Origin: Hyphomicrobiales bacterium
GTDB taxonomy: Bacteria > Pseudomonadota > Alphaproteobacteria > Rhizobiales > Beijerinckiaceae
Length of the DNA stretch: 34,441 nucleotides
Assembly: GCA_947455725.1 (NCBI GenBank)
Contig: CANGPL010000027.1
Location: forward strand, 1 to 34,441
Direction: 5' to 3'
Shown here: piece after piece, positions 12,481-34,441 of the stretch
How the letters are laid out: each line of letters starts with the position of its first letter
Position numbering within the stretch: the stretch's first letter is position 1
Notes under the pieces: generated by a model
Databases searched by the model: none
What the model was told of the DNA's origin: nothing
What the model saw: the letters and a program-made list of their open reading frames with translations, nothing else
Translations under genes and position numbers: made by a program

Positions 12481-13947
12481 TCAGGCCTCCCTATAGCCTT
12501 CTACTCGTCCTTCTTCCCAACCGGGCTTTGACGAGTTACGCCGCATAATGCGGCTATTGCCGGAACCCACTAAAGGTCCCACGATCATCAACGTTGCGAA
12601 GAGCAACGCAATTTCTAGAATAAAAACGATGACATATCCGGTGGCCGGGCTTTTAAGCACCGAGCCGAATGTCCCAGCCATCGCGGCCTGCGAAAGTAAA
12701 TCGCGCGCCACGCCGCTAAATGCGATGCTGACGCCTGCGCATGTCGCTTGAACGCCGCCCCAAGTGCCCAGCAAAATGCCGCTCATCGATGCATTGGCAA
12801 GACCCATGGTTGCCGTCAGCGTTCCAACGGCAAAGAGACCAGCGCCGATGCCTACCCCAAAGCAGCCGCTGCGGAACAGGCCAACGGCACCCGCAAGCGG
12901 CGAGAAAACAACAATACCAAACGACATGATCCCAACAAGGAGACCAATCGCGGAAACCTTCAACGCATCAATCTTCTGGTTCAAAAGCTGTTCGGACAGC
13001 ATGAAACCCGTCAACATGCCGCCGGCCAAAATCGCCATGAGCAAGGTTGTTTGACCAACCGCCAAACCAAAAATCTGTCCGCCAAACGGCTCAAGCAAAA
13101 TGTCTTGCATGTTAAAGGCAGCAGTGCCCAAGCCGACAATCACCATCAAACGGCTAAACTCTGGCAGACGGTTCAGCTTGGCCCATGCCGCTTTAAAATC
13201 GAGGCTTGGCTCTTCGGTCTCACGTTCCTGATAGCGGCGGCGAGGCTCCATATGCCAAAGCGCAATCCCGTTAAAGATAATCGTCAACAGCGCCACGCCT
13301 TGAATAAGTTGGATAAGGCGTACTTCGTTAAAACTCTTTAAAATGAGGCTATAGGCAATGGCACTTCCCACCATGCCGACAAGCAGCATTGTGAACAACA
13401 AAGCGACAACGCGGGGGCGAACTTCTTCGGGTGCCAAATCATTGGCTAAGGCCAAGCCTGCGGTCTGCGTTGTGTTGAGGCCCGCACCCACCAAGAGGAA
13501 GGCAAGACCAGCGCCCAATTGGCCATAAATCATCGGACCATTGGTGTCGCCCGAGAGGAGCAATAAAGCAAACGGCATGATGGCAAAGCCACCAAACTGC
13601 ATCATGCTGCCGAACCAAATATAGGGGACGCGCTTCCAGCCTAGAACCGAGCGATGCGTATCGGATTTATAACCGATCAAAGCGCGAAACGGCGCAAAGA
13701 CGACCGGCAACGAAACCATCAAGCCGACAAGCCAGGCGGGAACTGCGAGTTCAACAATCATGATGCGGTTTAGTGTGCCAGTTAACAACACCGTCGCCAT
13801 ACCAACCGAAATCTGGAACAAAGCCAGACGCAACAATTTGCCGAGCGGAAGCTCAGCCGTTGCCGCATCGGCGAAGGGCAGGAATTGCGGACCAACCCGC
13901 TGCCACCCACGCGCGATTTTCGAGTTGATAAGGTCGAGACCTTTCAT
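12481..13947 (-). CDS. lhaA: Light-harvesting/reaction-centre assembly transporter LhaA (PucC family)
   Basis: A 488-residue major-facilitator-type protein with about twelve membrane helices, beginning GWQRVGPQFLPFADAATAELP and followed by RLALFQISVGMATVLLTGTLNR, both diagnostic of the PucC/LhaA (Bch2) family. It lies between bchM and puhA, where LhaA is found in purple bacteria. LhaA supports LH1 assembly and probably handles bacteriochlorophyll delivery. It overlaps bchM by 4 bases. Two paralogues are in this window (22922-24268 and 26786-28195). Confidence 0.93.
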   Translation of the reverse strand: MKGLDLINSKIARGWQRVGPQFLPFADAATAELPLGKLLRLALFQISVGMATVLLTGTLNRIMIVELAVPAWLVGLMVSLPVVFAPFRALIGYKSDTHRSVLGWKRVPYIWFGSMMQFGGFAIMPFALLLLSGDTNGPMIYGQLGAGLAFLLVGAGLNTTQTAGLALANDLAPEEVRPRVVALLFTMLLVGMVGSAIAYSLILKSFNEVRLIQLIQGVALLTIIFNGIALWHMEPRRRYQERETEEPSLDFKAAWAKLNRLPEFSRLMVIVGLGTAAFNMQDILLEPFGGQIFGLAVGQTTLLMAILAGGMLTGFMLSEQLLNQKIDALKVSAIGLLVGIMSFGIVVFSPLAGAVGLFRSGCFGVGIGAGLFAVGTLTATMGLANASMSGILLGTWGGVQATCAGVSIAFSGVARDLLSQAAMAGTFGSVLKSPATGYVIVFILEIALLFATLMIVGPLVGSGNSRIMRRNSSKPGWEEGRVEGYREA

Positions 13948-14641
13948 CGCCGCTTCAACTCCTGTGCTTTGGAGTGATAGAAGCCGCTTGTGATGTGCTG
14001 ATCGCGACCAAGCGCCCAGCCTTCAAACCGTTCGTCGCGATGCACCGTAATCGCCACCCGATTGGGGCGATGCGGGACAATCCAAGGCGAACGATTGCCG
14101 CGCGGAAAAAGCTTGCCCACGGCCTGCATGGTGCCGAGAAGAGGCGTCCATGGCGCATAGGTAAAATGCACGCCGGAGCGGCTCATCGCCGTAAAGCGCG
14201 CGAGCATATTGATCATATCGGGGTAGGAATAATGGATCACCGAATCCATGGCGACGACGTGGTCGAACATGCCCAAGGAGTTATCAATCATATCGCCTGC
14301 GATAAAATTGATTTTACCCTTACCGAGCATTCCCGGCACGCGCTCTTTAGCAAGCTCAATCAGGGTTGGTGATAAATCAATTGCCGTTACATCAGCGCCG
14401 CGCATGGCCGCTTCCACCGCTAAAGCACCCGTGCCACAGCCTGCATCCAAGAGACGGCAACCGGTGAGATCTTCGGGCAAAAAGGAGAGGAGCGTATGGC
14501 GCATCCGGTCACGCCCGGCGCGCACGGTTGCACGAATACCGCTGACCGGTGCATCCGATGTTAAGCGCGACCACGCAGCAGCAGCCGTACGATCAAAATA
14601 CGTCTCAATCTTGCTGCGGCGCTCAATATAGGTCGAGGACA

Positions 14642-24271: not shown

Positions 24272-25462
24272 ATGCTGGAACGCACAGTATATGACGTTGT
24301 AGTGGTTGGCGGTGGCCCATCGGGTGCGACGGCCGCCCATGATTTAGCCCGCGTTGGCCGCAATGTTGTGATGTTGGACCGCGCCGGTCGCATCAAGCCT
24401 TGCGGCGGCGCCATTCCGCCCCGCGCTATTCGCGATTTTGAAATTCCGGATGAATTGGTCGTCGCCAAAATCAATTGCGCCATGATCGTTTCACCCAAAG
24501 ATCGACGCGTCGATATGCCCGTTGATGGCAGCTATGTCGGCATGGTCGATCGCGATGTGTTTGACGAATGGCTGCGCAACCGCGCCCGTCAATCCGGCGC
24601 CGAGCGGCGCACCGGCACCTATGAGCGTTTCGAACGCGATGCCGATGGTGTGGCGGTTGTCGTCTATAAAGACGCCGAAGGCATTGAGGAACGAATCCGC
24701 GCCCGCTTGGTGATTGGTGCCGATGGCGCTTTATCCAAAGTCGCACGCGACACCGTGCGCGGTGGTGATCGCATGCCTTATGTTTTCGCCTATCATGAAA
24801 TCGTCAAATCACCCGATATCGGCACCGCCGATTTCAGCCCCGCACGGTGTGATGTGTATTATCGCGGTACGCTGTCGCCTGATTTCTATTCATGGGTCTT
24901 CCCGCATGGCGACACGATGAGCATCGGCACCGGCAGCGCGAATAAAGGCTTTTCGTTGAAAGGCTCGGTAGCTGATCTTCGCAAACTCACGGGCCTTGAT
25001 AAAACCGAAACCATCCGCAAAGAAGGCGCGCCCATTCCGTTAAAGCCGCTCAAAAAATGGGACAATGGCCGCGACGTCTTACTCGCCGGCGATGCCGCCG
25101 GTGTCGTAGCGCCTGCTTCTGGCGAAGGCATCTATTACGCCATGCTCGGCGGGCGTCTTGCGGCAGAGGCGGTTGATCTCTGCCTTGCAACCGGCGACGC
25201 CAAGGCGCTGCTCACGGCGCGCAAACGCTTTATGAAGGACCATGGCACCGTCTTTTTCGTCTTAGGAATCATGCAGCGTTTCTGGTATGGCAGTGATGGT
25301 ATGCGCGAACGCTTCGTCAAAATGTGCGAAGATAAGGACGTGCAACGCCTGACATGGGAATCCTACACCGAGAAAAAGCTGGTCCGCAAAGACCCGTTGG
25401 CTCATCTTAAGATTTTCATTAAGGATACCGCGCATCTCTTGGGTCTCGCCAAAGTAACATGA
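24272..25462 (+). CDS. bchP: Geranylgeranyl reductase
   Basis: A 396-residue flavoprotein that reduces the geranylgeranyl tail of bacteriochlorophyll to phytyl. The N-terminal FAD fold is VVVGGGPSGATAAHDLAR (11-28), followed by CGGAIPPRAI. A second FAD motif is VLLAGDAAGVVAPASGEGI near residue 270, and the C-terminal part is as in the ChlP/BchP family. A strong GGAGG ribosome site lies ahead of the ATG. It overlaps tspO by 4 bases. Confidence 0.97.
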   Translation: MLERTVYDVVVVGGGPSGATAAHDLARVGRNVVMLDRAGRIKPCGGAIPPRAIRDFEIPDELVVAKINCAMIVSPKDRRVDMPVDGSYVGMVDRDVFDEWLRNRARQSGAERRTGTYERFERDADGVAVVVYKDAEGIEERIRARLVIGADGALSKVARDTVRGGDRMPYVFAYHEIVKSPDIGTADFSPARCDVYYRGTLSPDFYSWVFPHGDTMSIGTGSANKGFSLKGSVADLRKLTGLDKTETIRKEGAPIPLKPLKKWDNGRDVLLAGDAAGVVAPASGEGIYYAMLGGRLAAEAVDLCLATGDAKALLTARKRFMKDHGTVFFVLGIMQRFWYGSDGMRERFVKMCEDKDVQRLTWESYTEKKLVRKDPLAHLKIFIKDTAHLLGLAKVT

Positions 25463-25971
25463 TCGATTTATCGGACAGCTATACACAGGCGATCATCGCC
25501 GCAGCCATAGGCGCTACCCTCGTGGGTGCCATTGGCGGCTTTCTAACCGAGATCGGTCCTTGGTATCGCTCCTTACGCAATCCGGCATGGAAGCCGCCGG
25601 ATTGGGCCTTCGGGCCGATCTGGACGGTGATTCTGGTGCTTGTGACCATTGCCGCTGCCAAAGGATGGGTAGCCGCCCCCGACGAAACAGCGCGCCAAGC
25701 CATCGTGATCAGCTTTGCCGTCAACGGCCTTCTCAATATTGGCTGGAACCTGTTTTTCTTCAAACTTCGCCGCCCCGATTGGGCGCTGATCGAAGTCGCC
25801 TTTTTATGGTTTTCGATCCTCACGATGATCATCGTTTTGCTGCCCTTTTCGGTCGAGGCCGCGCTTTACGTGGCGCCCTATCTCGTCTGGGTGTCCATCG
25901 CCGCGCTTCTGAACCGAAAAATCGTGCTTTTGAACCAGCCTTTTGGCGGGGTTGAGCCACCGCGCACCTAA
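25459..25971 (+). CDS. tspO: TspO/MBR family tryptophan-rich sensory protein
   Basis: A 170-residue membrane protein with five helices and the family motifs GPWYRSLRNPAWKPPDW and NIGWNLFFFKLRRPDWAL. In Rhodobacter, TspO binds porphyrins and lowers photosynthesis gene expression in oxygen, acting through the AppA/PpsR pathway. It is translationally coupled to bchP (ATGA). No isoprenoid isomerase gene follows bchP here, unlike in Rhodobacter; a type 2 isomerase is found further right (30668). Confidence 0.94.
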   Translation: MIDLSDSYTQAIIAAAIGATLVGAIGGFLTEIGPWYRSLRNPAWKPPDWAFGPIWTVILVLVTIAAAKGWVAAPDETARQAIVISFAVNGLLNIGWNLFFFKLRRPDWALIEVAFLWFSILTMIIVLLPFSVEAALYVAPYLVWVSIAALLNRKIVLLNQPFGGVEPPRT

Positions 25972-26229: not shown

Positions 26230-26385
26230 ATGAGCGATGATGCAAACCGCGTCTGGCCAACCGGCCTTACCCACGCGGAATCGGAGGAACTGCACAAACA
26301 CATTATCGATGGTGCCCGCGTATTCGGTGCCATCGCGCTGTTCGCGCATTTCCTTGCTTATGTTTATTCACCTTGGCTTCACTGA
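26230..26385 (+). CDS. pucB: LH2 antenna beta polypeptide
   Basis: A 51-residue antenna protein with one membrane helix. [20 protein letters not shown] is the typical LH2 beta N-terminus, and H40 in [15 protein letters not shown] is the expected bacteriochlorophyll ligand of the B850 ring. H22 and H24 lie on the cytoplasmic side. The start is set by GGAGG 7 bases ahead of the ATG. pucA follows 12 bases later. An LH1 beta would have a different end, so LH2 is favoured. Confidence 0.95.
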
Positions 26386-26397
26386 GGGAGAACGGAC

Positions 26398-26622
26398 ATG
26401 AATCAAGGAAGAATGTGGACAGTCGTCAAGCCAACGGTTGGCATTCCAGTATTTCTGGGCGCCGTGGCGGTGACGTCTTTGATTGTGCACTACGCCATCT
26501 TGTCCCACACGACGTGGTTCCCAGCCTTCTTAGAAGGCGGCCACAAAAAGGTCTCGATGGAGATTCAGACAACCGTTCCGGCTGATCTGGCTCTTAAAGG
26601 CGTAGCGATCTTGAATTCCTAA
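26398..26622 (+). CDS. pucA: LH2-type antenna alpha polypeptide (LH3-like pigment pocket)
   Basis: A 74-residue antenna alpha chain. [10 protein letters not shown] at the start and [16 protein letters not shown] at the end of the helix identify it as LH2 type, with H31 as the ligand for B850 bacteriochlorophyll. Where B800-850 complexes carry Tyr44-Trp45, this chain has Phe44-Leu45, the pair known from B800-820 (LH3) of Rhodoblastus acidophilus 7050. Residue 41 is Phe, as in LH2. The C-terminus is some 20 residues longer than the usual 53-residue chain ([18 protein letters not shown] and on). The ribosome site GAGGGAG lies 7 bases ahead of the ATG. A hairpin follows the stop. Confidence 0.93.
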
Positions 26623-26785: not shown

Positions 26786-28195
26786 ATGAACCGCGTCGGC
26801 CTGAAAATGATACAAGTATGGGCCAGCTATGGGCCACGCTTTCTTCCCTTCGCCGATGTGGCAACGAAGGAGTTGCCGCTCAGCCGTTTGCTACGTCTGT
26901 CACTCTTTCAAGTCACAGTCGGCATGGCGCTTGTCTTGCTCGTCGGCACGTTAAACCGCGTCATGATTGTCGAGTTGGATGTACCCGCCTCGCTTGTCGG
27001 CATCATGATTTCGCTGCCGCTCCTTTTCGCGCCCTTCCGCGCGCTAATCGGCTTTAAATCCGACATCCATGAATCAGCGCTTGGATGGCGAAGAGTCCCC
27101 TTTATCTTTCGCGGCACGATGATTCAATTTGGCGGCCTCGCGATTATGCCTTTCGCGCTTCTGGTGCTTTCAGGCGGCGGCGAATCCGCGCGCTATCCCG
27201 TTTGGGTGGGACAATTCGGCGCTGGCATTGCCTTTCTGCTGGTTGGCGCTGGGTTGCACACGGTGCAAACCATTGGCCTTGCGCTGGCGACCGATTTAGC
27301 GCCCACCGAATCCCAGCCCAAAGTCGTTGGGCTTATGTATGTGATGCTGCTCTTGGGTATGATTGTCAGCGCAGTTACCTTTGGTGCCGCACTTGCCGAT
27401 TTCACCCCGCTGCGCCTGATCCAAGTCATCCAAGCCTGCGCCGTCATCACCCTCGTTTTCAACAGTATCGCCGCTTGGAAGCAAGAGGGCCGACACGCGG
27501 CACGGCGAAACCCCGCCAAACAAAAACCTACGTTCAGCGAATCATGGGAGTCCTTCGCCGCCGGTGGCAATGCCGTTCGACGCCTTGTCTCGGTTGGTCT
27601 CGGCACCATGGGATTCAGCATGGCCGATGTTCTGCTTGAGCCCTATGGCGGGCAAATCCTTCATCTCAGCGTTGGTGCTACAACAAGCCTCACCGCGACC
27701 CTGGCCGCCGGTGGCCTCATCGGCCTCGCTTTGGCGTCGCGCGTCTTAAGCCGCGGAGCCGATCCCTTCCGCATGGCAAGTTACGGGGCACTTGCGGGTA
27801 TCCCAGCTTTTGTATTGGTCATTTCCTCAGCATCCTTCAATGAACCGCTTCATTTTGCATTAGGCACCCTCATGGTCGGTTTTGGTGCCGGCTTGTTCGG
27901 CCATGGTACGTTGACAGCGACGATGAATCTCGCGCCGCGCAGTCAGGTCGGCTTGGCGCTTGGTGCATGGGGCGCATCGCAAGCCGTTGCGGCAGGGCTT
28001 GCCATTGCCATTGGTGGCGTGCTGCGTGATTTAGTTTCCAATTTGCCGCTACAGGGCAATTTTGGTCCGTCAACCGGCTATATGTGCGTCTATGCGCTTG
28101 AAATTATATTGCTGATAGCGACTTTGACCGTGATGGCACCGCTTATTGGTCCCAATCGAGCGTCATCCATGCTTCGCGATGAGGCGGCTCCTTAA
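26786..28195 (+). CDS. pucC: LH2 assembly transporter PucC
   Basis: A 469-residue twelve-helix protein of the PucC/LhaA family. It starts WASYGPRFLPFADVATKELP, followed by RLLRLSLFQVTVGMALVLLVG and LNRVMIVELDVPASLVGIMI. PucC is needed for LH2 formation and probably brings bacteriochlorophyll to, or shepherds, the antenna polypeptides. It lies about 160 bases after pucA, so the three form the expected pucBAC order. Its last 4 bases overlap the convergent stop of the next gene. It is closer to LhaA (12481-13947) in sequence pattern than to the bchG-bchP paralogue. Confidence 0.93.
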   Translation: MNRVGLKMIQVWASYGPRFLPFADVATKELPLSRLLRLSLFQVTVGMALVLLVGTLNRVMIVELDVPASLVGIMISLPLLFAPFRALIGFKSDIHESALGWRRVPFIFRGTMIQFGGLAIMPFALLVLSGGGESARYPVWVGQFGAGIAFLLVGAGLHTVQTIGLALATDLAPTESQPKVVGLMYVMLLLGMIVSAVTFGAALADFTPLRLIQVIQACAVITLVFNSIAAWKQEGRHAARRNPAKQKPTFSESWESFAAGGNAVRRLVSVGLGTMGFSMADVLLEPYGGQILHLSVGATTSLTATLAAGGLIGLALASRVLSRGADPFRMASYGALAGIPAFVLVISSASFNEPLHFALGTLMVGFGAGLFGHGTLTATMNLAPRSQVGLALGAWGASQAVAAGLAIAIGGVLRDLVSNLPLQGNFGPSTGYMCVYALEIILLIATLTVMAPLIGPNRASSMLRDEAAP

Positions 28196-28557
28196 GGACT
28201 TTGTGAAAGCCAGGCCATGCATAACAGCACCCCCGCCAGCCCCGCGCTACCATGGACCAAAAGCATGGCATTGGCTTTCACCTTAGACCCGCGGCCAATA
28301 ATCGGACGAAGCAATCCGAAAAAGGCAGCAAGCGCGAGGAAGCCCGCGGCCATAGCGCCGAAATCACCGGCGGGAATGGCCTCACCCACCGGCCAGCCTT
28401 TGAGCAGGATCACGACCATCTCGAGCGATCCAAGCCCCAATAAGAAATGCAGCCCGATGAGAACCGATTTTCGCTTCCCGCGTATGAGAAGCAAGGCTAA
28501 GGCAAAACCAAGTAACATCGTGGCTAAAGGGAGTAGCATAAGCGGAAAATGCGGCAT
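28192..28557 (-). CDS. Small membrane protein of unknown function, convergent with pucC
   Basis: A 121-residue protein with four hydrophobic segments (LMLLPLATMLLGFALALLLI, then KSVLIGLHFLLGLGSLEMVV and two more). I recognise no family. The ATG at 28557 is taken as start; an in-frame TTG at 28608 would add 17 residues and neither has a clear ribosome site. The stop overlaps the end of pucC by 4 bases on the opposite strand. Good hydrophobic periodicity and tight packing against pucC argue that it is real. Upstream of it, facing right, begins the repeat protein gene, so the two are divergent across about 220 bases. Confidence 0.65.
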   Translation of the reverse strand: MPHFPLMLLPLATMLLGFALALLLIRGKRKSVLIGLHFLLGLGSLEMVVILLKGWPVGEAIPAGDFGAMAAGFLALAAFFGLLRPIIGRGSKVKANAMLLVHGSAGLAGVLLCMAWLSQSP

Positions 28558-28775
28558 GGGGATCTCGGCCAAAGGAACGCGCAACGGAACTTCGGCAACG
28601 ATAACCAAGAAAGCCGGTTTCCGGCAAGATCGGCAAATCGTCCAAGCGCAATCGCGGACTTGCCAGACCTACCATTCTATCGCAGTTTTAAGGCAAGACT
28701 TCAGTCCGCACTAACGGTAATAAGGGCGATCACACCGGCGCTCAAACTCCATCTCAACAGACAGGCGCAAATGTC

Positions 28776-29714
28776 ATGAGCACACTAAATACCCGGATTT
28801 ATAAGGCCTATGGTGACGCGGTAAATGCGGTTAACCGGCTGCATAAAAAGAAATTCGATAAAGATTTCGTTTTTCTGATCTCCAACGCCGACAACCACGC
28901 CGCAGAAGCACAAGAGACGCTTGAAGAGCGGATCGCCAAAGCGGGTGTTCCGGCGAGTGACGCGGCAGGCTTCATCGAATGGATCAATCAGGGCTATTCG
29001 CTTGTTGCCGTTCGCGCGCCATGGGGCGAGTCTCGCAACGCCACGACGATCCTCGATAAATTCTCGCCCGAGAAAATTCCGGTTGCGAATAAGAAATATC
29101 AATCGCCGACCTTTCTCAATGGAACGCCATTTTCGAGATTTTTCGAACTTCCGTTGCTTTCAAAAGACCCGACGCCCTTCGCGACGTTCTGGAATATGCC
29201 GTCTTTGGTGAAATCCTCGACGCCGTTTTCGAGCTGGCTTGGAATCCCGACGATCTGGCGGCAGCCTTCCTCGGAAACATCCTTGTTTGGCATTCCAAAA
29301 CTTCTCCGCACGAAGCAGAGCTTTTCGTCTTGGTATAATCTGCCTTTATTGACGAAGACGCCGCGCCCCTTCTCGGACTTTTTAGGCATGCCCGAACTCA
29401 CCCGGACCTCAACACCGTTCTCGGCCTTTTTCCGGGTGCCCTCTTTGATCCATCAAACGGGATGGGATGCGCAACTTCATGGATGGCCGAAAATTACGAA
29501 AAGCGGGACGCCATTCTCGGATTTCCTTGGCGTCAATGTGCTGTTGAAAAAGGACAATACAACCTTCTCAGCCGACAGCGTGACAAAGCTTAGCCGAGTG
29601 GCGGCACCGTTTTCGTCCCTGCTCGGCCTGCCGACCGTTTTAAAGCGTAGCTGGTCCCTATCGGACATGTTAGGAATCCCGACGCTCTTAAAGCCGCGCA
29701 AAACCGGCGAGTAA
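28776..29714 (+). CDS. Protein with twelve tandem 16-residue repeats, function unknown
   Basis: A 312-residue soluble protein without signal peptide or membrane helix. Residues 1-105 form an alpha/beta-looking domain with HAAEAQETLEERIAKAGVP and QGYSLVAVRAPWGESRNATT, faintly like small stress-response domains. Residues 116-307 are twelve uninterrupted repeats of exactly 16 residues with consensus x-T-P-F-S-x-F-L-G-I-P-x-L-x-K-x. Position 11 is Pro in 10 of 12, position 4 is Phe in 9 of 12, position 13 is Leu, Ile or Val in all, and position 15 is Lys, Arg or His in all. A short basic tail follows. It sits between the LH2 genes and cytochrome c2. I do not recognise the repeat family. A role at the membrane surface of antenna assembly is speculation from position. 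Confidence 0.85.
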   Translation: MSTLNTRIYKAYGDAVNAVNRLHKKKFDKDFVFLISNADNHAAEAQETLEERIAKAGVPASDAAGFIEWINQGYSLVAVRAPWGESRNATTILDKFSPEKIPVANKKYQSPTFLNGTPFSRFFELPLLSKDPTPFATFWNMPSLVKSSTPFSSWLGIPTIWRQPSSETSLFGIPKLLRTKQSFSSWYNLPLLTKTPRPFSDFLGMPELTRTSTPFSAFFRVPSLIHQTGWDAQLHGWPKITKSGTPFSDFLGVNVLLKKDNTTFSADSVTKLSRVAAPFSSLLGLPTVLKRSWSLSDMLGIPTLLKPRKTGE

Positions 29715-29783: not shown

Positions 29784-30089
29784 ATGAGCATAGATGAGTT
29801 TATCAAAAGCGGCCTTGCGACCGACCTCGTAGTGGTTGTTATGACCATCGAGGCGGTCTTTGTGACCTTTTACCTGCGGCGCGCGGGGCTAAATTCGTCT
29901 GTTCCGGGCTTTTTGGCAGCCCTTTTGGCCGGTGCCTTTCTTGTTTTAGCGCTGAATGCGGCACTCACCGGATCGACAATGGGCGAGATTGCTGTCTATC
30001 TGGGACTAAGCCTCCTTGCGCATCTGGGTGAGCTTGCCCTAAAAATTCGTGGTCTGAAGGCAAATCCAAATCAGAGGCACCAGACGTAA
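29784..30089 (+). CDS. Small three-helix membrane protein, function unknown
   Basis: A 101-residue protein with three hydrophobic segments (about 12-31, 41-61 and 66-88) and a polar C-terminus. GGATGGG lies 5 bases ahead of the ATG. It is 69 bases after the repeat protein and 47 bases before cytochrome c2 on the same strand, so it may belong to one transcript with them. I recognise no family. Confidence 0.75.
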   Translation: MSIDEFIKSGLATDLVVVVMTIEAVFVTFYLRRAGLNSSVPGFLAALLAGAFLVLALNAALTGSTMGEIAVYLGLSLLAHLGELALKIRGLKANPNQRHQT

Positions 30090-30136: not shown

Positions 30137-30517
30137 ATGTCCAAGAACTTTATTTTTTCGTCGATTGCTGCAGCGATGCTTCTTGCCACCCCAGCTTTGG
30201 CCGATGGCGATGCAGCCAATGGCGCGAACGTGTTTATCAAATGCAAGGCCTGCCATGAAAATGAGCAGGGGGTGAACAAAATCGGCCCGACGCTGAAGGG
30301 TGTTGTCGGCCGCAAGGGCGCATCGGTTGAAGGCTATAACTATTCAGACGGTGCCAAAGCCAAGTCCGCCGAGGGACTTGTGTGGACGGAAGAGGCGCTG
30401 GCCGCTTACCTGCCCGATCCAAAGGCATATGTGCCTGGCACCAAAATGGCGTTTGCTGGTTTGAAAAACCCGCAAGACGTGGCGGATGTGATCGCCTATC
30501 TCAAGTCCAAGCCATAA
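30137..30517 (+). CDS. cycA: Cytochrome c2
   Basis: A 126-residue periplasmic class I cytochrome c. A signal peptide of about 22 residues ends at LLATPALA-DGDAANG. The haem site is CKACH (residues 36-40 region), and the distal methionine is in PGTKMAFAGLKNPQD. The length and spacing fit soluble cytochrome c2, which carries electrons from the bc1 complex back to the photo-oxidised reaction centre, here through the tetrahaem PufC. AAAGGGA precedes the start, and a strong terminator follows. Confidence 0.93.
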   Translation: MSKNFIFSSIAAAMLLATPALADGDAANGANVFIKCKACHENEQGVNKIGPTLKGVVGRKGASVEGYNYSDGAKAKSAEGLVWTEEALAAYLPDPKAYVPGTKMAFAGLKNPQDVADVIAYLKSKP

Positions 30518-33793: not shown

Positions 33794-34441
33794 TTAGGAC
33801 CAGATTGGGAGGTCAAGCCACCAGTTCCACCACTCAGGCCAACCTCTGGTCCAAAGCGGTCCACTGATCACGATACAGACGGCGCTAAAGAACACAGCAC
33901 CGAGGGCTAGGAACAAGCCAAGGCGATGAATGCCAAGCGTACCAATCGAGTATCCAATCGTATCGCGGAAAAAACTATTCTCGTGCTCGGCTGTCTTGAC
34001 CGGCTCACCCTTTTGCGGGTTCGTGGCGGATAGAACGAGCGCGCCATGCAGTCCGAGTGCCATTGTCGTCGTGAAGAAGAGCGACACGGCAATCATATGC
34101 GCTGGGTTGTAATGAAAGTGCAGATATTGGTAGCCAACATTCGACACCCAATCGAGATGGCTGATAATGCCATAGGGAAAACCGTGACCCCATGCACCCA
34201 GCAAAATCGGGCGAACAACAACGAGTGTCACATAGGCGCCAATCGCAAAGCTGAACGCAATCGGCACATGAAAGCCAATGCCGAGCTTGCGGCAAATTTC
34301 AACTTCCCTGAGCGCCCATGACACAAAGGCTCCGATCGCACAAACCGTAATCACCTGCCAAAAGCCACCTTCTTTGAGAGGGGCCATACCCAGACCATAT
34401 TTGAGGTCCGGTGGCGCAATGTTAATTTGAAAAATATTCCA
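33794..34441 (-). CDS. pufL: Reaction centre L subunit (5' end beyond window)
   Basis: The frame is open to the last base of the window, so only the C-terminal 215 residues are seen, starting at [38 protein letters not shown] includes the special-pair histidine region, [18 protein letters not shown] carries the iron/QB-side histidine, and [18 protein letters not shown] is the last helix region. The missing part is the N-terminal helix A. pufB, pufA and the operon promoter must lie to the right of the window. Confidence 0.97.

Follow-up and report, generated by a model that had tools for sequence, protein, structure and literature searches.

Which product is made by a gene that stands beside the LH2 genes and encodes a protein composed largely of short, regular repeats? 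Few antenna complexes have been studied as thoroughly as LH2, which is usually described as consisting of alpha and beta chains only. The window, that is, the whole stretch of 34,441 nucleotides of DNA that was analysed, carries such a gene downstream of pucBA and pucC (Table 1), and its twelve 16-residue units call for an explanation in terms of the antenna, of its assembly, or of neither.

The repeat gene and its setting

A preliminary description of the window had located the gene between pucBAC and a cytochrome c gene, and matches to the Pfam families PF00556, PF03209 and PF00034 bear this out. PucC is known as an LH2 assembly factor. The best PDB match of the LH2 alpha chain is 1ijd_A, ungapped over residues 1-52, and this match, together with the Phe44/Leu45 pair, leads us to expect blue-shifted, LH3-like absorption. 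Nine of the 11 PDB relatives of this alpha chain are deposited as nine copies.

Table 1. Features of the puc locus in the window
Feature	Position	Strand	Evidence or remark
pucB, LH2 beta	26230..26385	+	PF00556
pucA, LH2 alpha; Phe44/Leu45 as in B800-820 (LH3) alpha 1ijd	26398..26622	+	PF00556
pucC, LH2 assembly MFS protein	26786..28195	+	PF03209, E 3.3e-150
Gene of the twelve-unit, putative ribbon protein, 312 aa	28776..29714	+	ORF; 8 relatives; Ka/Ks about 0.1
N-terminal domain, residues 1-111, compact alpha/beta fold, ferredoxin-like type	28776..29108	+	
Twelve 16-residue units, residues 116-307	29121..29696	+	Register match to LH2 gamma
Short charged C-terminal tail, RKTGE	29697..29711	+	
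Cytochrome c	30137-30517		PF00034

Several other reading frames surround these genes. A small hydrophobic ORF on the reverse strand (28192-28608), between pucC and the repeat gene, has matches of 70-97 residues at 60-84% identity in all eight relatives and no Pfam family above cut-off, and a hydrophobic protein of 101 aa (29784-30089, +), between the repeat gene and the cytochrome c gene, has a tblastn match at three of the eight relative loci (L001, L006, L008). A TspO/MBR protein (25459-25971, +) lies directly ahead of pucBA. A second PUCC-family protein (12484-14022, -; E 1.1e-131) is probably a core-antenna assembly factor of the LhaA type. The contig ends within pufL (33794-34441), and pufBA is probably missing from the assembly, since the sole LHC pair found in the genome is the puc pair.

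The division of the repeat part into twelve units of 16 residues without insertion or deletion was confirmed by lag scores. The mean BLOSUM62 score of the protein against itself is 0.86 at lag 16 (1.17, 1.12, 1.32 and 1.04 at lags 32, 48, 64 and 80), compared with a top score of -0.06 over lags 1-80 in 2000 shuffles, so that the 16-residue period is far above chance. The core of the unit reads (T/A)P(F/L)Sx(F/L)LG(I/L)PxLx(K/R). The positional counts of the preliminary description were reproduced for proline at position 11 (10/12), an aliphatic residue at position 13 (12/12) and a basic residue at position 15 (12/12; seven Lys, four Arg and one His), but phenylalanine occupies position 4 in eight units rather than the nine claimed. 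Likewise, the TPF element is missing from units 4, 8 and 12, as had been reported, but unit 10 also lacks it and unit 5 has QSF in its place. The 64-residue super-period proposed on that basis is weak: lag 64 gives the highest of the five scores, but permutation of the unit order gives p=0.034 for the window protein and 0.073 for L005, and a two-unit period does equally well in the window protein (p=0.026). Serine is found at position 5 in 8/12 units of the window protein and in 70/108 units of its clade.

This clade consists of the window protein and eight full-length relatives (L001-L008) with 52-78% identity, found by scanning genome contigs of bacteria and archaea. Four are recorded as Beijerinckiaceae, three as Rhizobiales or Hyphomicrobiales bacteria and one as a Rhizobium sp., and most come from MAGs. 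The 12 x 16 architecture is kept without indels in all nine members. In comparison with L001, L006 and L008, Ka/Ks comes to about 0.09-0.11 for the N-terminal domain and 0.07-0.12 for the repeats, values that are rough at Ks >1; a ratio of about 0.1 in both parts indicates that the gene is under purifying selection. No second copy was found in the window's own genome.

Searches of the window protein against Pfam and NCBIfam returned nothing above cut-off, and no model in either library covered the 23 members of the A4 profile. One weak match per library, each to a single one of the 23 members, was set aside (CrcB, E 0.0095; Pribosyltran, E 0.0012). The YflT stress domain (PF11181) was likewise rejected for the N-terminal domain, where it scored 12.3 bits against a cut-off of 26.2, and none of the 23 A4 members matched it at E<=0.01. 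In an AlphaFold2 model built from a nine-sequence alignment, residues 1-110 are folded (pLDDT mostly 81-91) and, in fold comparison, resemble other proteins only in the common ferredoxin-like arrangement, a likeness from which no function is drawn; a PII/CutA-like fold is at most a candidate. The repeats are modelled at pLDDT of about 30-46 with no repeat fold, a result that so shallow an alignment could also give, and the longest helix in the model has at most 13 residues.

Relation to the LH2 gamma of Rhodopseudomonas

A phmmer search of the window protein against 177,635 distinct PDB sequences gave one match at E<=1, namely LH2 gamma of Rhodopseudomonas palustris (7zcu_S; E 5.2e-4 over 83 gap-free residues). 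This protein (RPA1495, Q6N9P5; structures 7zcu, 7zdi, 7ze3 and 7ze8) is built, like the window protein, on a 16-residue repeat, and the earlier statement that no described family of this form was known is therefore not supported. When the unit profiles of the two proteins were rotated against each other, a single one of the 16 rotations stood out (score 12.5; next -11.2), and it aligns Pro 11, the aliphatic residue at 13, Lys 15, Gly 9 and an aromatic residue at 4. Against permuted columns this gave p=0.00025 for the twelve units of the window, p=0.0014 for 65 units of 12 family proteins and p=0.0055 for 43 units of short forms, the latter two sets having been chosen by a window-seeded scan. 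Profile searches of the PDB were weaker than the single sequence: the A2 profile (nine relatives) found gamma at E 0.26 as its sole match at E<=10, and the A3 profile (23 relatives) found it at E 1.2, fifth of six. Moreover, when gamma was used as query in the order sample described below, two low-complexity repeats (G328 and G002) outscored the window protein, so that score alone is not decisive for gamma likeness. The two proteins also share an aromatic residue at position 7 of the common register, as well as a position at the puc locus, which gamma has in the Rhodopseudomonas-like genomes read.

According to the available portions of the structural study (PMC9618040), gamma is an extended ribbon outside the LH2 ring, near the cytoplasmic side, enclosing six of the nine subunits with a mean unit spacing of 27.6 Å and with one Ser-liganded bacteriochlorophyll per alpha/beta pair. 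The same portions describe gamma as confined to Rhodopseudomonas and its partial coverage of the ring as unexplained. The suggestion that the repeats are membrane-surface or pigment-protein contact motifs is consistent with this published geometry. In build, however, the two proteins differ: gamma is a protein of about 10 kDa with six units and no N-terminal domain, whereas the window protein has 312 aa, twelve units and a folded N-terminal domain. Furthermore, the serine that binds bacteriochlorophyll is at position 8 of each gamma unit, whereas the twelve window units have F, W, L, F, Y, L, F, H, L, D, L and L there. Serine at this position occurs in 0/12 window units and in 3/108 units of the nine clade members, and the published ligand is thus absent from the window protein; Ser5 is at most a candidate ligand. 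Among 44 unit-bearing proteins, those with Ser8 are the ten Rhodopseudomonas-like long forms, in their gamma-type units, and L052, L054, L055 and L060, with a single such unit each. Because it has neither Ser8 nor the six-unit, domain-free build, the window protein is not gamma itself but a longer variant in the same family. The published restriction of gamma to Rhodopseudomonas may be true of the Ser8-rich type, but it does not extend to the family as a whole.

Additional antenna polypeptides are familiar in other forms. The LH1 gamma of Blastochloris viridis and the gamma-like polypeptides of Rhodopila globiformis are transmembrane, and PucE (14-kDa LH2 gamma) of Rhodobacter capsulatus is an LH2-associated third polypeptide. 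The B. viridis and R. globiformis polypeptides are, like the proposed ribbon, extra polypeptides on the outside of an antenna ring, but the accessible text of PMC10214105 gives them as separate chains, 16 and 11 per LH1 ring. The model of the window protein, with no helix longer than 13 residues, differs from such transmembrane chains. A gamma-like LH2 protein outside Rhodopseudomonas was not found described in the literature searched, which lay mostly outside subscription journals.

Proteins that combine features of both types are encoded in genomes close to Rhodopseudomonas. In the family of G340, the gamma query matched 11 of 179 genomes in three genera, and these are called Rhodopseudomonas-like here because in one of them (G554) gamma shares 98% identity with the chain of R. 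palustris. Ten long proteins of 212-222 residues could be delimited in seven of the 11 (L083-L090, L092), encoded either immediately ahead of gamma or next to another pucBA pair. An hhalign comparison shows their N-terminal domain to be homologous to the one in the window protein (probability 98.8%, E 9.8e-17). The repeat part opens with a window-type unit (e.g. AAPFSNLIHAPVLL), continues with gamma-type units bearing Ser8 (e.g. GPYKSFSGTPLLLD) and in nine of the ten ends with another window-type unit (e.g. NPTPLSSWLGLPVLSK), so that both types are present in one chain and in one register. The gamma query matches these long forms at 47-63% identity. As far as their sequences go, the long proteins with an N-terminal domain are the link between the window protein and gamma; they share with the former the domain, the window-type first and (in 9/10) last units and the linkage to pucBA, and differ from it in having about 6-7 unit lengths rather than twelve. 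In two papers on purified Rhodopseudomonas LH2 (PMC9618040, PMC9897067), the parts available report gamma and make no mention of the long form.

One of these long proteins may already have appeared in expression data. In the available part of PMC6879726, rpa3011 is a hypothetical protein next to pucBAd (rpa3013, rpa3012), and low light induces the two together in at least 14 of 17 strains of R. palustris. At L092, a ribbon gene lies after a pucBA pair; a further pair is found beyond the gene on the opposite strand, and the other flank carries a LuxR-type response regulator and two bacteriophytochromes, which is the published order of rpa3009 to rpa3016. This gene order suggests that the L092 ribbon is RPA3011.

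Occurrence beside LH2 genes

The distribution of the repeat gene was assessed in two samples of genomes that have one genome, G000, in common. The order sample contained 397 genomes, of which the A1 profile matched 30; a genome was counted as ribbon-bearing if its translation held the N-terminal domain and at least two units, and 19 of the 30 qualified. The other 11 (G050, G092, G202, G292, G301, G309, G333, G336, G346, G378 and G380) matched in the N-terminal domain only, with no units in the translations. PF00124 was present in 76 of the 397 genomes, including 18 of the 19 with a ribbon; the remaining one, G184, does have a pucBA pair. The search with PF00556 covered G184 and the 76 with PF00124, that is 77 of the 397 genomes. 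Genomes with at least four LHC genes were taken as LH2-bearing, together with G000 and G184, whose two LHC genes are the puc pair (n=24), and the remaining 53, with one or two LHC genes, as LH1-only. On this division the repeat gene occurs in 19/24 LH2-bearing genomes and in 0/53 LH1-only genomes as judged by the profile alone (Fisher 8e-14). In all 19, no more than about 4 kb separates pucBA from the repeat gene, and the alpha chains encoded at these sites begin with MNQ or MNN, like LH2 alpha. One genome counted as a miss, G024, has a divergent ribbon after pucC when the locus is read. Four others, all of one genus (f31 g37) with several puc pairs (G030, G073, G139, G190), have no ribbon at the puc loci fetched (L094-L097, L129 and L130, with one G190 locus left out).

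In the class sample of 250 genomes, all searched with the A4 profile and PF00556, LHC genes were found in 18. Ten were classed as LH2-bearing, namely G000, G660 (whose sole pair has an LH2-like alpha chain) and eight genomes in which the LHC genes number four or more. The remaining eight, with two LHC genes each, were classed as LH1-only by PF00556 alone. A ribbon of at least four units was present in 8/10 of the former and 0/8 of the latter (Fisher 0.001; 0.002 without G000). The count becomes 9/10 if G657 is included, in which the N-terminal domain and one clear unit lie beside pucBA (L106); in the LH2-bearing G689, no ribbon was seen near the puc locus read (L120). Together with the f31 g37 genus, G689 forms a natural contrast set without a ribbon near the puc loci read. 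The A4 profile matched 18 genomes of the class sample, nine of them without LHC genes. Eight of these nine matches were to the N-terminal domain only, with no unit-like motif (G576, G599, G607, G683, G694, G708 in one frame, G743 and G806), and the ninth, G635, was low complexity. A repeat-bearing ribbon was thus found in 0/232 class-sample genomes without LHC genes.

Among 50 genomes of the window's family, the LH2 alpha query found one further LH2 genome, G824, in which the ribbon gene follows pucBA directly; the Rhodoblastus acidophilus alpha chain from the PDB had no match above 65% identity in these 50. In a gene-order scan of 53 loci, pucB and pucA were matched in 53/53 and the ribbon in 46/53, figures that speak of nearness and not of frequency, as most of the loci had been fetched for a ribbon match and many of the same proteins had gone into the model. 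The order pucBA-pucC-ribbon is that of the window clade and many others, pucBA-pucC-long ribbon-gamma is that of the Rhodopseudomonas-like genomes, and elsewhere the order is pucBA-ribbon-pucC or the ribbon lies on the opposite strand beside pucBA. The proposed link to antenna organisation has thus held up, in that the repeat gene was found only in pucBA-bearing genomes and close to the pair in the genomes searched. It had been noted that homologues common in non-phototrophs without puc would speak against this link; in such genomes the matches cover nothing beyond the N-terminal domain, and the translations read showed no unit-like motif.

Probable role at the LH2 ring and competing explanations

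The window gene probably encodes a long ribbon that wraps LH2 and belongs to one family with the LH2 gamma of Rhodopseudomonas, a reading for which our confidence comes from the larger order sample and the bridging long proteins. By analogy with the gamma structure, the repeat part would have no fold of its own and would extend along the exterior of the LH2 ring near the cytoplasmic face, each alpha/beta pair being matched by a single unit of 16 residues. The hydrophobic residues at positions 4, 7, 8, 10 and 13 and the prolines would fix the ribbon to the ring and the bilayer, the basic residue at position 15 would point towards the lipid head groups, and the folded N-terminal domain could stay cytoplasmic as an anchor or assembly handle. 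The low pLDDT of the modelled repeats is what might be expected of a chain that needs the ring.

The length of the window protein bears on this role. By simple arithmetic from the published spacing, twelve units would extend over about 331 Å, compared with about 248 Å for nine, and the ribbon should therefore either overlap with itself where the ring has nine subunits, belong to a larger ring or extend to an adjacent one. Outside the window clade, between 1 and 8 units were detected per protein, over a span of 1 to 9.4 unit lengths (most often about 5 and 7-8), and in four of these proteins (L047, L048, L050 and L059) the unit spacing is about 25-27 residues instead of 16.

An unlikely alternative to a lasting subunit is an LH2 assembly factor, whose repeats line up the alpha/beta pairs during ring closure while the N-terminal domain contacts PucC, and which then leaves. 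The ribbon gene does lie near pucC, itself annotated as an assembly factor; gamma, the sole form seen in a structure, has no N-terminal domain; the window units have no pigment ligand at position 8; and the accessible portions of PMC9618040 name only gamma in purified LH2. Yet the repeat and its register are those of a stable subunit, and gamma-type units with Ser8 occur within proteins that carry the N-terminal domain. The surplus of twelve units over the nine subunits expected from the alpha chain would also suit a linker between LH2 rings, or from LH2 to the core complex, with some units on each ring. We regard this as distinctly improbable, as the relatives beyond the window clade are mostly about 5 to 8 unit lengths long, less than one nonamer, and gamma stays on one ring in the available text of PMC9618040.

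Explanations that separate the protein from LH2 fare worse. The highly regular 16-residue spacing in the window clade could be that of a self-folding solenoid, an option raised in the preliminary description, or of a soluble scaffold that resembles gamma by convergence. Such a reading is very hard to sustain when the repeats reach no confident fold, albeit in a model from an alignment of nine sequences that is weak evidence in itself, and when the homologous N-terminal domain and the gene order are shared with the neighbour of gamma. That a stress or redox protein unrelated to the antenna came to lie here by chance is scarcely credible: the sub-threshold YflT likeness and the N-domain-only relatives in genomes without LHC genes point that way, but the repeat gene was found in none of the 53 and the eight LH1-only genomes and in none of the 232 class-sample genomes without LHC genes.

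If the window gene does encode an LH2-wrapping ribbon, a wider proposal can be made, although tentatively and with some doubt on our part: the ribbon family would be a general, overlooked third subunit of alphaproteobacterial LH2, Rhodopseudomonas gamma would be a late, pigment-binding offshoot, and the ribbon of the window clade would be long enough to close the whole ring, marking a ring of more than nine, self-overlap or the tying of rings. A ribbon gene next to pucBA in the majority of the LH2-bearing alphaproteobacteria covered here would mean that a third subunit may have been missed in many LH2 complexes, and a ribbon regarded as peculiar to a single genus looks widespread. Ser8-bearing and Ser8-lacking ribbons are open to comparison, and the family offers a natural length series, up to twelve units, for asking what ribbon length does. 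The Rhodopseudomonas-like genomes also hold a third kind of ribbon (L086:9076-9627, -; L087:12668-13120, -; L091:27-659, +), which has no N-terminal domain and about nine units by eye, eight of gamma type and a last one of window type, enough for a whole nonamer.
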